Shown: piece after piece, positions 8,056 through 12,206 of the stretch
Numbering within the stretch: the stretch's first letter is position 1
How the letters are laid out: each line of letters starts with the position of its first letter
The notes under the pieces: generated by a model
The model's database searches: none
Seen by the model: the letters and a program-made list of their open reading frames with translations, nothing else
Told to the model about the DNA's origin: nothing
Translations under genes and position numbers: made by a program
Assembly: GCA_027488865.1 (NCBI GenBank)
Contig: JAIYAU010000055.1
Location: 1 to 33,620, forward strand
Origin: Cytophagaceae bacterium
GTDB lineage: Bacteria > Bacteroidota > Bacteroidia > Cytophagales > UBA9547
Direction of reading: 5' to 3'
DNA: 33,620 nt

Positions 8056-8559
8056 TTATTCAATTTTAATTTCAGCTTCGAATTGTATTCTCATTTTATA
8101 TTTTGAGTTAAAAATTTGTCGCTGTTGCACATTTGACTCTTGAAAGCAAGGAAACTGATGTTTGCGATTGGCCACAACTGCTTTTCGCTTATTGAAGCTG
8201 AAATAATATTCACGGTTTACCGCTATCATTCGTTTAACTGTAGATTCAATTTGGCTCAAACCTTCTGTTTGCCACGAGTCTCTTTTGTCTTTTAGCTCAA
8301 CTAAGAGCAAGTTATTTTCATAATTCAACATTACATCACAGCGATTATCCATTTCACCGTTCTCTCTTAGTATTTCAATACAATTATCAATTGCGGTAAA
8401 AAGTATTTGTTTCCTTTCTTTATTTAACACCGTGGCATTCCAACTGTCTTCATCAGTTATTTTAATTTGTGCAGGAGCGGCATCTCCTGCATCATACAAC
8501 CCGAATTTTCTTTCGTTAGTTGTCTTTTGGCATTCGACTCGAAAAAAATCTATACTCAT
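8056..8559 (-). CDS. Small PD-(D/E)XK nuclease-like protein coupled to an ABC-type ATPase
   Basis: A 167-residue protein of no family I can name. The central region has a PD-(D/E)XK-type core: helix residue E62, D75 in RCDVML, then a hydrophobic strand ending in VELK (E88-x-K90), and Q103 in LSQIES on the following helix. This is the spacing expected for a restriction-endonuclease-like metal site. There is no signal peptide, so it should act in the cytoplasm. Its ATG overlaps the stop of the ATPase gene by 4 bp (8556-8559, ATGA), so the two are translationally coupled and probably form one complex. I infer it is the nucleic-acid-cutting effector of the pair. An inactive structural partner is the main alternative. 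Confidence 0.6.
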   Translation of the reverse strand: MSIDFFRVECQKTTNERKFGLYDAGDAAPAQIKITDEDSWNATVLNKERKQILFTAIDNCIEILRENGEMDNRCDVMLNYENNLLLVELKDKRDSWQTEGLSQIESTVKRMIAVNREYYFSFNKRKAVVANRKHQFPCFQESNVQQRQIFNSKYKMRIQFEAEIKIE

Positions 8560-9779
8560 AACCCTTCCTCAATTTCTAAAAGTGAGTCAAATAATTGATT
8601 TACCTTTCCAAGAGACATATTGAGGTAGTTATTATCAGAGGGTATCCCTTCGAAATTTCCAAGTTTATTGATTGTTCCGTCCTTCTCATCCAATTCATAG
8701 ATCACCAAATCATTAGGTGCAACAGTAGAATTTAAAGGTACGATGGCATTTAGTTTTTCTTTTGTCCTTTCCTTTTCTAATATTCTTCCTTTTAATGAGT
8801 CTGCCTTTATAGCCAACGTCAAATAATTGATTAAATAAGGACTATGTGTAGTCATAATCAGTTTATTGCCCTCATTCATATTGTTAAACTTCAATAAGTC
8901 ATTCAACAGTTGTTGTTGGGAGATGGGGAATAGGTTTTGCTCGGGTTCTTCTACAATATTGATAAAAGCTTTATTCTGAAACCTAGCTTTAATTTCTCTA
9001 ACTTTCATTAGCTTATCTTCATCAGTTAGGCTAAGGTTCAGCATGATGTCGGCAATTTCCTTGTTCATTCTAATACTTTGATCTACATTAATATTAGCTG
9101 CATTAATTTCAGAGCCACTTTTAATAATTTCTGCTAAATTTTTAGATACTAAAAACAACGGAACTAGAGATTGGAAACCACTAGATGCGACCAACAAAGG
9201 GATATTAAAATCGTCTCCAATTATAAAAGAAGAGTCGGATTTAGATTCGTATTTATATCTAACTCCATTAATTGGCAAAGCAATTTCCTCCTCCTTTGTA
9301 TATGATTGGCCTATTTTCAATTCTTCAGCAAATTCAAAAAGAGGCTCTGGCAATCCTTTAACCCCTGTTGCATTCTTAATCACACTTAGAAAGTTCCGTT
9401 CAGCGGGAACATACATGATTTTAGGAACTACATAATCGCGTTTTTCAATTGGTTTAATAATGGGCCACGGATTCTCTATCTTATTGTATAAAATAGAATA
9501 TCGGTCCCCTACATAATCAATTATTGTATTCTCTTGGAAATAAACACTTAAATTTTGATACGCAAATTGCCTGAAAAAATCAATAAAAGACATGTTTGCG
9601 GAGAGATCACCTCTATTAATGGCTTTCTCCATCCACATTAGCGTCGATATCACCTTCGCCACTGTACTCTTGCCACTCCCTTGGTTTCCAATAAAAACCG
9701 TCACCTTTTTTATGTAGATCCATTTATCACCAAAACCTTTTTTGATGGGGCCGAAATTCTTTATTCTTATTTTGCTCAT
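8556..9779 (-). CDS. ABC/SMC-type AAA family ATPase, probable sensor of a two-gene defence-like system
   Basis: A 407-residue cytoplasmic ATPase of the AAA_15/AAA_21 (OLD/RecF-like) class. The N-terminus IRIKNFGPI is typical of the class, followed by Walker A GNQGSGKST (31-39), a signature-like SSGFQS (199-204), Walker B with catalytic Glu in INIVEEPEQNLFP (273-285) and an H-loop THSPYL (311-316). Between Walker A and the signature lies an about 150-residue variable insert, and Walker B is followed by a short C-terminal domain. There is no TOPRIM domain, unlike OLD or GajA. The partner nuclease gene overlaps its 3' end by 4 bp. Known pairs of this style (PARIS AriA/AriB, Septu PtuA/PtuB, RloA/RloB) are anti-phage systems; a similar role here is inference. 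Confidence 0.8.
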   Translation of the reverse strand: MSKIRIKNFGPIKKGFGDKWIYIKKVTVFIGNQGSGKSTVAKVISTLMWMEKAINRGDLSANMSFIDFFRQFAYQNLSVYFQENTIIDYVGDRYSILYNKIENPWPIIKPIEKRDYVVPKIMYVPAERNFLSVIKNATGVKGLPEPLFEFAEELKIGQSYTKEEEIALPINGVRYKYESKSDSSFIIGDDFNIPLLVASSGFQSLVPLFLVSKNLAEIIKSGSEINAANINVDQSIRMNKEIADIMLNLSLTDEDKLMKVREIKARFQNKAFINIVEEPEQNLFPISQQQLLNDLLKFNNMNEGNKLIMTTHSPYLINYLTLAIKADSLKGRILEKERTKEKLNAIVPLNSTVAPNDLVIYELDEKDGTINKLGNFEGIPSDNNYLNMSLGKVNQLFDSLLEIEEGL

Positions 9780-9797
9780 TTAATTCTTTCTAGCGTT

Positions 9798-9805
9798 CAA
9801 ATTTA
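9798..9805 (-). promoter_or_regulatory. Candidate -7 element (TAAATTTG on the minus strand) for the ATPase/nuclease operon
   Basis: An exact TAnnTTTG match reading toward the ATPase ATG at 9779, leaving a leader of about 14 nt. A short inverted repeat (ATGATC at 9873-9878, GATCAT at 9887-9892) lies about 70 bp further upstream and could be an operator, but this is weak. Confidence 0.5.
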
Positions 9806-10009
9806 CAAATATCTCAGCTATGATTTTTTAGACTCATTCTTTTTCATGAAGTAAGGTAGAAAATTTTTTCTGATGATCTTTGCATGGATCATTAAAACTT
9901 ACGCATAGAAATGGTCGTGTGGATAACTTAGAAATAAAAACCATACATAGAAAATTTGCTCAATAACCTCTTAGCTTGACGGCTATGGTGTGCCACAGAC
10001 CGAGGAAAC

Positions 10010-10104
10010 AGCAAGTGCTAATGTTACACCTTGCCATGATTATTTTATACAGTTCATACCTTTTATAGGCTAGATTCAGTAGGTGCTATTAAGGAACAAA
10101 TAGC
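10010..10104 (+). repeat. 95-bp direct repeat, copy A
   Basis: About 95% identical to copy B at 13876-13971, in the same orientation, with homology stopping abruptly at both ends. Its plus-strand reading ASANVTPCHDYFIQFIPF is interrupted by a 1-bp difference relative to copy B, after which RLDSVGAIKEQIA resumes in another frame. It is probably the decayed 3' end of a gene. The two copies bracket the segment carrying the GxxExxY, lipoprotein and Fic genes. Confidence 0.85.
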
Positions 10105-10140
10105 GGATAAATGATCACCCCTTCCATAACAAGAAGAGGC

Positions 10141-10295
10141 ATGATTGGTGATAGACAGAATTGGAAGTTGAGAGGCACCTTCATTTACGACAACATCACG
10201 TAATGGACAACTGGCAAGCTAAAGCACAAAATAAAAGGGATAAAGTGGTTGGAATTGCGGATGAGGTTGGGTATTATGGTGCGAAGTTAATGTAG
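10141..10295 (+). pseudogene. Possible decayed gene fragment
   Basis: Two short frames in this stretch read like protein rather than random sequence. From 10141 one reads MIGDRQNWKLRGTFIYDNIT and then a stop. In a second frame from 10203 another reads MDNWQAKAQNKRDK, continues through VVGIADEVGYYGAKLM, and stops at 10293-10295. The last 12 codons overlap the 120-bp repeat, whose other copy keeps the reading (DEIGYYGAKLM, stop) with only a Val to Ile change. I do not recognise the parent protein. It may equally be a chance reading. Confidence 0.3.
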
Positions 10296-10378
10296 CCATG
10301 CAAACACGGACTGGCGGGAGTGAAAAGCGTGATGCTTAACGAATAAAAGGTACAAGCGCGACGCTTGCACCATAAGGA
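10259..10378 (+). repeat. 120-bp direct repeat, copy 1 (MITE-like)
   Basis: By my alignment it matches copy 2 (12087-12206) at 114 of 120 positions. Within it, TTATGGTGC (10274-10282) and its reverse complement GCACCATAA (10367-10375) form terminal inverted repeats of a 102-bp core. After one unpaired base the match extends by AAG/CTT. The right end contains a 10-bp-arm palindrome (10349-10371). The architecture resembles a small non-autonomous element or REP-like repeat. No transposase is present in the window. Confidence 0.8.
10349..10371 (+). repeat. Palindrome in repeat copy 1
   Basis: GGTACAAGCG (10349-10358) and CGCTTGCACC (10362-10371) pair over 10 positions with a single A/C mismatch around a 3-nt loop. 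The same outer arms and the same A/C mismatch recur in the palindrome at 12055-12078, with a different inner stem. Confidence 0.75.
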
Positions 10379-10393
10379 TTGGTTATTATTGGA

Positions 10394-10974
10394 TGTCAGA
10401 ACTATGATTTTTCTGATTTAGGTGATTGCCATGAATGTCTAAACTGTGACTTTTTGTAATTAAGGTGATGGCTATAGAGAGTAAAATATGATTAAAGAAC
10501 AATACAAACATTCCGAGCTAACGTCTAATATTATCAGATGCGCTATGACAGTTCATAGTACTTTGGGTAACGGATTTCAGGAGGTGATATATCAAAGGGC
10601 TTTAGAAATTGAAATGTCCGAAAGTGGCTTAACGTTTAGTCGGGAATTTGAAATGCCTATTTTTTACAAAAATCTACAAATTGGTACTAGGCGAGTTGAT
10701 TTTTTAGTAGAAGGTGTTATATCGGTTGAGTTAAAAGCCATAACAAAATTAGAAGATGTCCATTTGGCACAAGCAATTAACTATTTGGAAGCTTACAACC
10801 TTGAAATTGGTTTACTTATTAACTTTGGTGAAATAAGTTTGAATTTTAAACGACTTACAAATAAAAAAATCAAATTATGAATTGTATTGATGTAATTATA
10901 ATTGAAATGTGATTTATTGTATGATTAGAGAAATCAAAAAAATCATAACAATCAAATAAATCATAGTTCAGACA
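10394..10974. mobile_element. Putative GxxExxY unit: gene enclosed by a 17-bp inverted repeat and 9-bp-spaced TGATT words
   Basis: The left end TGTCAGAACTATGATTT (10394-10410) and the right end AAATCATAGTTCAGACA (10958-10974) are inverted copies matching at 16 of 17 positions. Going inward from the left end, TGATT or TGAAT words start at 10405, 10414, 10423 and 10432, exactly 9 bp apart. From the right end AATCA starts at 10959, 10950, 10941 and 10932, again exactly 9 bp apart. A second, degenerate left copy (TGTCTAAACTGTGAC, from 10436) follows. The unit is 581 bp and holds only the GxxExxY gene. A mobile or amplifying element is inferred; I see no convincing target-site duplication. Confidence 0.5.
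10488..10880 (+). CDS. GxxExxY family protein (PD-(D/E)XK nuclease fold)
   Basis: A 130-residue cytoplasmic protein. The family signature G29-F-Q-E32-V-I-Y35 lies in the first helix region, preceded by VHSTLGNG. The nuclease-type core follows: D71 in RRVDFLVEG, E81-L-K83 in ISVELKA, and Q95 with a downstream Tyr in AQAINYLEAY, the layout of PF13366/TIGR04256. The length is typical and all expected acidic residues are present, so it looks intact. Its role is unknown; these small proteins are common in Bacteroidota and often occur in several copies per genome. It is enclosed by inverted repeats (10394-10410, 10958-10974), so it may belong to a mobile unit rather than to a cellular pathway. The start at 10488 lies right after the second TGATT-type series. 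Confidence 0.9.
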   Translation: MIKEQYKHSELTSNIIRCAMTVHSTLGNGFQEVIYQRALEIEMSESGLTFSREFEMPIFYKNLQIGTRRVDFLVEGVISVELKAITKLEDVHLAQAINYLEAYNLEIGLLINFGEISLNFKRLTNKKIKL

Positions 10975-11110
10975 GGTTGGATTTGAGGATAGGGTTGGGT
11001 AATATTGTAGTAGTTGTTTACGATCTAAAAAAGAGGGACTCTTTTAGGTTAGAAGCCACATTGCGGCATATAGACCAAAGATTATAAAATACAACTGTAC
11101 ATTAGTAATT

Positions 11111-11899
11111 ATGAAAAGTTTAACTTTAATTCTACTGATAGTTATTTGTTGTGGTTGCGATAAACACAATACCAGTATTATTGATAAAATTGACTCAAGA
11201 GAGCTTACCGTAAGCAAGTCGGATTCTATAAATGAGTTTATATTAAGATATCCAGACAATAGGAAATTAATTGTTTATTACACTTCTAATGGTCTAAAGT
11301 CCTGTCGTGAATTACAAGGTAAGAATGTAGCTAGATCTTTATATAGAAAAGAGGGGAAAATTAATGAGATTAGTAGTTACAGTTATAATTATTTATCGGG
11401 AAGATGGTTTTGTGACTATACTAAATTTTATAAAGAGGGCGTGACTGACACAAGTAGGTCTCAGATGATTTCTTTTGAAGATTGGAAAGTGTTTAAAAAA
11501 GGTGAACGAGCAGAAATCAAAATTAATAACATTTTTTTGAGAAATGGGGTAGAAGTATACATGATTTATGGTTGCTTTGATAGCCAATTTAATTATACTA
11601 ACACTCAGGCGGTGGTGAAAAATATTGGTTTTAGTGCTGAAATAACTTTATGCTTAAATACCGATAATCTGGGGCATCAAAAGCTTCCAGTAGTTTTTGC
11701 CAATGTCAAGGATTTAAAAAATGGAGGTCACCAAGTCAGAGCAGTTCCTATAATGATTAATTACTATGTGAATGATTCCGAGCTTTTAACTTTTAATTCA
11801 GTTGAGTACCATAATAAATTGGAAGAACTCATTGAGAATGGAGGCATTGATACCTTACCACTCCCGCTAACGCAAGTTACTGTTCGTAAAGTTAAGTAA
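11111..11899 (+). CDS. Putative lipoprotein of unknown function
   Basis: A 262-residue protein with a lipoprotein signal: MKSLTLILLIVICCGC followed by DKHN, where Cys16 is the likely lipidated residue (lipobox ICCGC, somewhat atypical). The Asp at +2 is of uncertain meaning in this phylum. The mature part is beta-rich. A segment near 60-110 (KLIVYYTSNGLKSCRELQ, then KEGKINEISSYSYNYLSGRW) faintly recalls MORN-like or toxin-antitoxin immunity repeats (Y/F-x-x-G-x), but I would not assign that. The neighbours are the GxxExxY unit and the 120-bp repeat copy 2, so the gene sits inside the accessory island. A cargo or immunity-type role is speculation. Confidence 0.6.
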   Translation: MKSLTLILLIVICCGCDKHNTSIIDKIDSRELTVSKSDSINEFILRYPDNRKLIVYYTSNGLKSCRELQGKNVARSLYRKEGKINEISSYSYNYLSGRWFCDYTKFYKEGVTDTSRSQMISFEDWKVFKKGERAEIKINNIFLRNGVEVYMIYGCFDSQFNYTNTQAVVKNIGFSAEITLCLNTDNLGHQKLPVVFANVKDLKNGGHQVRAVPIMINYYVNDSELLTFNSVEYHNKLEELIENGGIDTLPLPLTQVTVRKVK

Positions 11900-12054
11900 G
11901 TTAGTTCCGAAAGTTGTGCCAATACAGTCACCACTTGCAGCATTTTTTATAATTTATCTCATGAGCGAAAAATACAGAATCTGGGAGGTGTTTATTGGAC
12001 AGATCTCATTGTATGGTTATACGGCTCCTGGAACTAAGTTCCTAATTTGTTTTG

Positions 12055-12078
12055 GGTACGGAAGTAAACTTCCGCACC
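12055..12078 (+). repeat. Palindrome with variable inner stem
   Basis: GGTACGGAAG (12055-12064) and CTTCCGCACC (12069-12078) pair around the loop TAAA with one A/C mismatch. The mismatch is at the same position as in the palindrome at 10349-10371, while the inner stem differs with paired changes on both arms. Confidence 0.7.
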
Positions 12079-12086
12079 AGAGTGGA

Positions 12087-12206
12087 GGATGAGATTGGGT
12101 ATTATGGTGCGAAGTTAATGTAGCCATGCAAACACGGACTAGCAGGAGTGAAAAGCGTGAGGCTTAACGAATAAAAGGTACAATCGCGACGTTTGCACCA
12201 TAAGGA
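12087..12206 (+). repeat. 120-bp direct repeat, copy 2 (MITE-like)
   Basis: Second copy of the element at 10259-10378, same orientation, six substitutions by my alignment. The inverted termini are intact (TTATGGTGC at 12102-12110, GCACCATAA at 12195-12203). Its internal palindrome (12177-12199) has one more mismatch than copy 1, so copy 1 may be the less decayed. It ends 14 bp from the Fic stop codon. Copies 1 and 2 bracket the GxxExxY unit and the lipoprotein gene. Confidence 0.8.

Follow-up and report, generated by a model that had tools for sequence, protein, structure and literature searches.

Introduction

RAYT enzymes, whose chemistry is of the HuH type, and the REP, REPIN and BIME repeats that belong to them provide, by analogy, the closest working model for the arrays that surround GxxExxY genes. 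In the literature on these systems, the RAYT gene lies between two inverted short palindromes while gene-less palindromes occur elsewhere, the repeats are situated between genes, palindrome abundance follows the gene and gene and repeat vary together (PMC2817692, PMC3733652). The RAYT itself is described there as a tyrosine enzyme related to the IS200/IS605 transposases, with REPs that carry GTAG or CGTC tags (PMC2817692, PMC3733652), and as the product of a fast-evolving gene (PMC2817692).

Another precedent is found in Geobacter metallireducens, where paired tandem words on opposite strands were listed as 'global regulator binding sites' of classes 1-3, class 2 with three words TCTCCGTS[Y] and class 3 with five heptamers, and were read in 2009 as presumed IHF/HU sites (PMC2700814). 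For the GxxExxY family (TIGR04256/PF13366), the passages found in the literature searched are an annotation remark and a gene table, with nothing on flanks. No publication that connects such arrays with GxxExxY genes turned up in the open-licence literature searched, which does not prove that none has been printed.

The locus analyzed here is like the RAYT/REP system in that its gene is flanked by inverted repeats, gene-less copies exist and their abundance tracks the gene, and it differs in that GxxExxY is a PD-(D/E)XK protein and the arms consist of words repeated every 9 (to 12) bp.

The 581-bp unit and its terminal arrays

The unit spans positions 10394-10974 of the window, i.e. of the whole 33,620-base stretch of DNA that was analyzed. 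Direct reading bore out the 17-bp inverted ends described in the earlier note, since the left end at 10394 (TGTCAGAACTATGATTT) and the right end, taken as the reverse complement of 10958-10974 (TGTCTGAACTATGATTT), are paired at 16 of 17 terminal positions, and the pairing continues to 34 nt at 79% identity. The left terminal array in its outer copy (10394-10435, plus strand) begins with TGTCAGAAC and proceeds in exact 9-bp steps through TGATT at 10405, 10414 and 10423 to TGAAT at 10432, while the inverted right terminal array (10932-10974, minus strand) holds AATCA at 10959, 10950, 10941 and 10932, all four exact and again in 9-bp steps, and ends in GTTCAGACA. The same note had counted four TGATT-type words per end at exact 9-bp spacing; the spacing and the right-hand words stand as described, and the fourth left word is the exception. 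TGATT-N4-TGATT-N4-TGATT occurs three times in the window, always within the two ends of the unit, and in none of 100 dinucleotide shuffles.

Beyond what the earlier note describes, the left end has a further, degenerate copy 42 bp inward (10436-10477, plus strand), with 10435-10454 matching the reference at 75% and with three mismatches at 10437, and the repeat search indicated a possible though uncertain solitary degenerate left-end copy with three mismatches at 9809-9828 (plus strand). A 34-nt direct repeat is located to the left of the unit at 10247-10280 and directly to its right at 10975-11008 (both plus strand, 82% identical). A word similar to the left one abuts several gene-less copies in the own genome, where copies are similar to the window up to about position 11007. 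From its divergence and length, this repeat seems too inexact for a target duplication.

The unit has terminal inverted repeats as in a conventional insertion sequence or MITE, its gene-less copies being MITE-like, and within it there is no recognised transposase gene, GxxExxY being the sole gene of at least 80 aa. A structured RNA of known family was rejected, as Rfam returned nothing above the gathering score for 9780-11150 and a single sub-threshold match (18.6 bits vs 41.8).

With regard to the neighbourhood, two overlapping minus-strand genes at 8056-9779, which adjoin the unit, match the PADLOC candidate defence pair PDC-M29A/PDC-M29B (E 5.5e-155 and 1.1e-51), and a Fic-domain protein (Pfam Fic) encoded on the minus strand at 12221-13621 matches the PADLOC candidate PDC-S04 (E 6.4e-36), so that the pair and the Fic/PDC-S04 gene may form a defence-rich stretch. 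Two other repeats were observed in the window: a dispersed one at about 11989-12089, which recurs at more than 20 other places of the own genome among 30 scored candidates and has no noticed 9-bp array, and a short one at about 10325-10372, which has several copies in genomes G004 and G007 and a middle that is palindromic by eye.

The encoded protein

The gene at 10488-10880 (plus strand) encodes a protein of 130 aa, and the PD-(D/E)XK membership claimed for it earlier was confirmed by scores above the curated cut-offs of TIGR04256 (E 2.4e-39, 134.3 bits; cut-off 35) and PF13366, PDDEXK_3 (E 1.5e-38, 132.1 bits; cut-off 22). Residues E32, D71, E81, K83, Q95 and Y99 are invariant in an alignment of 48 sequences; we take them to be the active-site residues of the PD-(D/E)XK fold, and Q95..Y99 resembles the QxxxY motif of the RecB family.

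The AlphaFold model of the protein has a pLDDT of 90.7. Foldseek gave no match at or below 0.001 with it (best 4ic1, 2.2e-3), and VIA-align placed 4ic1_G first with a Z of 9.7 and an rmsd of 3.1 over 98 residues, a score rated by the tool as middling; the other listed entries reached a Z of at most 7.8, among them 4r5q (Z 6.6, rmsd 3.8 over 108 residues). Identity to 4ic1 and to 4r5q is 17% alike. As 4r5q is titled Cas4 and 4ic1 (SSO0001) is a Cas4 protein as well, these best, middling fold matches suggest a RecB/Cas4-like fold and a likeness to nucleases of the Cas4/RecB type. The protein differs from Cas4 in having just 130 residues and a single cysteine, and therefore no four-cysteine iron-sulphur site.

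The ratio dN/dS was 0.03-0.11 in 10 of 13 pairs, the other three being saturated; the protein is under strong purifying selection, unlike the RAYT genes, which are described as fast-evolving (PMC2817692). A true RAYT was rejected, given that there is no HuH enzyme and the protein matches PD-(D/E)XK families only. By eye, no GTAG or CGTC tag stood out in the copies read, and the window unit itself ends in TGTCAGAAC and TGTCTGAAC.

Searches with the protein sequence found no relatives on viral contigs or in the phage collection (E 1e-5), no PHROG match at 0.001 and nothing below 0.001 among PDB sequences (best 0.061), and PADLOC gave no match for the gene. The Rpn/YhgA-like proteins also have a PD-(D/E)XK fold; they belong to a different Pfam family (PF04754) and are not known to have periodic inverted ends. 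These multi-copy nuclease proteins are reported to be linked to DNA mobilisation (PMC5350276).

Inverted arrays at other GxxExxY genes

Of the 59 genomes that represent the order, 31 had a match to TIGR04256, which exceeded the cut-off in 29. The locus sample combined 72 loci from genomes of the order with the best 80 of 583 confirmed loci from a sister clade, the latter mostly from Bacteroidota and also from Planctomycetota, Treponema, Opitutae, Melioribacter, Chloroherpeton, Methylobacter and Rhizobium records; the Rhizobium record is probably mis-binned, judging from surroundings that it has in common with Flavobacterium loci. Removal of 2 duplicates (L114, L150), 16 loci that were not full length and 9 with less than 150 nt of flank reduced the 152 loci to 125.

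The earlier note had asked for the same flanks at other GxxExxY genes, and inverted repeats scoring at least 14 within 200 nt of the gene were indeed found at 69 of 125 loci. The controls gave 16 such cases among 625 swapped partners and none among 375 shuffles or among 114 windows displaced 500 nt outwards. At a score of at least 12 the counts were 86 of 125 loci against 49/625, 5/375 and 0/114 respectively, and 39 loci had no arm pair at this score. Outside Bacteroidota, arm scores of 12.5 in Planctomycetota, 17.5 in Treponema and 24.0 and 29.5 in Opitutae were obtained, with weaker or similar arms (11.0 and 14.0) in Melioribacter-type records and no arms (8.0) at the Methylobacter locus; the downstream sequence of the Chloroherpeton locus is too short for judging arms. 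Direct repeats on both sides of the gene were seen at 34 of 125 loci, some of them being whole small palindromes.

The array words vary by lineage (TGATT, AGGATT, CACAGAG, CGCAAAG, CACGAAT). Autocorrelation over 250 flanks peaked at lag 9 (z 7.0), which was the best lag of 4-20 in 53 of 250 flanks compared with 25 of 239 displaced ones. Lags 10, 11 and 12 are also in excess, though lag 12 has a similar frequency in the displaced DNA, most of which is coding (34/250 vs 30/239), and the signal at lag 2 is as strong (z 8.4) and was taken for a simple-sequence effect. Since spacings of 10-12 occur too, we abandoned the idea that strict 9-bp spacing holds throughout the family. Protein distance and flank-word distance are correlated with a rho of 0.25 (maximum of 300 permutations 0.16; displaced flanks 0.05), a real but weak correlation in which flank distance is accounted for by protein distance to a small extent only.

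Arrays and gene across genomes

Across the 59 genomes of the order there were 102 matches to the pattern GTCTGAAY-N3-GATT-N5-GATT, vs 1 to its reversed control. Arrays of this type were present in 20 genomes, 18 of which have the gene over the cut-off, vs 11 of the 39 array-free genomes; as exceptions, G050 lacks any gene match despite its 13 arrays, and G005 combines 5 arrays with a gene fragment.

A wider comparison covered 247 genomes of the phylum and the CACAGAG/CGCAAAG-type pattern ACCRCRRAG-N2-CRCRRAG, which gave 766 matches against 28 in the control, two genomes with gene matches below the cut-off being counted as gene-free. The 120 gene-bearing genomes held 731 of these arrays (reversed control 5), and the 127 others held 35, near the control level of 23; the abundance of gene-less repeat copies follows the gene here (731 vs 35 arrays), as in RAYT/REP systems. 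At least one array was present in 80/120 vs 23/127 genomes, and at least two in 65/120 vs 6/127. Omission of the largest mostly gene-free family (f36) left 65/117 vs 5/76 for at least two arrays, which reduces the scope for a purely phylogenetic origin of the association. The possibility that such flanks are equally common without the gene, raised beforehand as a refutation, is contradicted at the level of genomes by the 65/120 vs 6/127 count; inside gene-bearing genomes, however, arrays outnumber genes, and G050 and G005 keep arrays without a full gene. In array-rich genomes this excess is severalfold (e.g. 34 arrays and 6 genes in G281), therefore many arrays must be gene-less.

Gene-less palindromes

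Genomes that carry the gene also contain palindromes of roughly 80-190 bp that have ends of this kind but lack the gene. In the own genome (4.33 Mb, 64 contigs), three GxxExxY genes were counted, including one fragment, and the triple-word pattern with at most one mismatch matched 33 times, vs 3 in the reversed control. Reading of most of these places revealed gene-less elements of about 120-190 bp with both ends, two of them in tandem; single ends are also present, all elements start with TGTCTGAA-type ends, several are bordered by the 34-nt word of the window, and three one-mismatch places (L042, L043, L045) look like chance. A four helix bundle gene was also observed in this genome (C37:13642-13905).

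Reading of 20 stretches around array matches in four further genomes (G024, G010, G003, G023) revealed two-ended TGTCTGAA...TTCAGACA elements in 7, with lengths of 91-192 bp when a simple search counted the innermost pair, and one recognisable end in the other 13. G050 and G005 carry gene-less copies of about 80-150 bp at different places. No target-site duplication was seen by eye in the gene-less copies read. Three gene-less copies fold with z-scores of -6.9 to -9.0 against mononucleotide shuffles under RNA parameters. Two gene copies in genome G011, each with an internal stop codon, share about 92% identity over a 425-bp stretch that takes in the gene.

Sites compared between species

The search for an empty site, called for earlier, found no base-exact one. 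For the window copy, both sides of the unit were matched in none of the nine other genomes of the family; G002 has a relative of the left neighbour gene. In genus g18, unit L095 of G038 (812-1456) is enclosed by two conserved genes, its flank matches being 653 bp apart, and the same site measures 140-168 bp in G101, G108, G075, G065, G053 and G111; some other relatives have long gaps of different content (e.g. 916 bp in G059), and several hold a palindrome of another word type in the gap. L095 directly borders coding sequence to its left and right. The upstream gene takes its last codons and its TGA stop from the left end of the unit, and the right end offers the downstream gene a possible GTG start, both as read by eye.

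A second site, in genus g50, was followed through 101 genomes, with 47 stretches read (46 intergenic ones and L211; the gene-bearing L279, L287 and L296 were left out). It presents gaps without a visible array (e.g. L306, L307, L314, L315, L317, L318), palindromes, nested palindromes and ten gene units, five per orientation. In L280 and L285, a CACAGATT-type palindrome is nested inside a CGCAAAG-type one, which looks like the insertion of one element into another. The two arms of a unit are concerted: own pairs of arms match with a mean of 38.05, vs 21.9 with the right arms of other units (0 of 10,000 permutations), and the own partner gave the highest value of its row for 7 of the ten units and of its column for 5. 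Since own arms match best on average, the two arms change together, whether by conversion, re-insertion or selection for pairing.

The gene units of g50 keep one site across species with flanks about 75-90% identical, therefore movement of the gene itself seems rare. The earlier suggestion that the 581-bp unit is mobile is accordingly upheld in part. It agrees with the recurrence of gene and inverted word ends as one unit in much of the family and with the dispersal of gene-less two-ended copies in the same genomes; on the other hand, the gene is often at one orthologous site in several species, which makes it unlike a fast-spreading insertion sequence.

Four helix bundle genes with 7-bp arrays

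Genes for four helix bundle proteins (TIGR02436) from the same 59 genomes served as the comparison family, with 30 loci (L346-L375) of which 2 cut-short ones were omitted. They lie between inverted arrays at 16 of 28 loci, vs 3 of 140 swapped partners, and their flanks have an exact 7-bp period, with an excess of 9.5% at lag 7 (z 7.6) and signals at lags 14 and 21 too. Lag 7 was the best of lags 4-15 in 27 of 56 such flanks, whereas the GxxExxY flanks of the same genomes had lag 9 as best in 26 of 108 and lag 7 in 6. Neither strict 9-bp pattern was found within 500 nt of the 28 four helix bundle genes, and one or the other was found at 14 of 71 GxxExxY loci. As these genes stand in inverted arrays and encode no nuclease, the layout does not depend on one. 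Array-ended small genes are thus a wider phenomenon than GxxExxY, with the 7-bp arrays as a sister phenomenon.

Discussion

The reading that we prefer, with a probability of roughly 0.6, is that the unit of the window is one copy of a very small mobile palindrome family of REP/RAYT-like habit, in which a Cas4/RecB-like PD-(D/E)XK nuclease replaces the HuH transposase. The encoded nuclease would recognise the arrays, probably when the two arms fold, either as a hairpin on single-stranded DNA at the replication fork or as a cruciform, and would cut at or near the TGTC..GACA ends. Repair or replication might then copy, move, invert or internally delete the unit, and gene-less copies would be acted on in trans. 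Such a working mode would be like that of RAYT with REP/REPIN palindromes, but with a different nuclease and periodic ends. What is observed directly is that gene and arrays go together in much of the family, that gene-less copies exist and that the two arms of a unit are concerted; recognition, cutting and movement by the GxxExxY system are what we infer from sequence comparison.

Unlikely, though the strongest competitor, is that the palindromes move or multiply by themselves, with replication slippage, fold-back synthesis or the action of a host recombinase as possible routes; GxxExxY would then be either a passenger or a housekeeping nuclease for the trimming of such hairpins. The many gene-less palindromes that G050 and G005 keep without a full gene would suit this, as would the four helix bundle genes, which have the same layout at another period without a nuclease. 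It fits poorly, however, with arrays near the control level in gene-free genomes (35 vs 23 in 127 genomes) and with a protein that keeps its putative active-site residues invariant under purifying selection.

The strong folding of the three gene-less copies (z -6.9 to -9.0) and the position of palindromes between genes and at gene ends lead to a further explanation, which we hold to be more doubtful still: that the inverted arrays are regulatory or terminator hairpins selected at gene ends and binding a nucleoid protein, with GxxExxY autoregulated by such sites. At L095 the unit gives its neighbours a stop codon and a possible GTG start, as read by eye, and selection for a terminator-like hairpin could by itself keep the arms paired. 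The Geobacter reading as IHF/HU sites comes close to this explanation. TCTCCGTS[Y] of class 2 is the reverse complement of a CACGGAG-type word and the heptamer period of class 3 is that found here around four helix bundle genes, yet the passages on these arrays describe them as presumed IHF/HU sites without a link to a GxxExxY or four helix bundle gene. Regulatory hairpins give no account of a gene inside the array pair, of arrays that follow the gene between genomes or of nested and inverted copies.

Composition and chance in A+T-rich intergenic DNA with low-complexity repeats, to which loci without arms, the similarity of lag 12 near and far and the raised lag 2 might point, is a highly improbable source of the association and was rejected, because the data far exceed every one of the controls, whether shuffles, swapped partners, displaced windows or reversed patterns.

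Tentatively, and with rather less confidence than in the nuclease-driven palindrome family, we suggest an unnamed minimal class of mobile DNA made of inverted word arrays with a gene-specific period (about 9 bp for GxxExxY, exactly 7 bp for four helix bundle genes), each protein perhaps reading its own array by the spacing. Both kinds may leave gene-less palindromes in many bacterial genomes, where these could become terminators and even gene starts or stops.

Overall, if the preferred reading of the unit as a palindrome family served by a PD-(D/E)XK nuclease is true, a common protein family of unknown function would gain a job and its many copies an explanation. The reading would likewise account for the CACAGAG/CGCAAAG/TGATT palindromes scattered through genomes of Bacteroidota and of some other phyla, and the REP/RAYT way of life would have been invented a second time, independently and with another nuclease.
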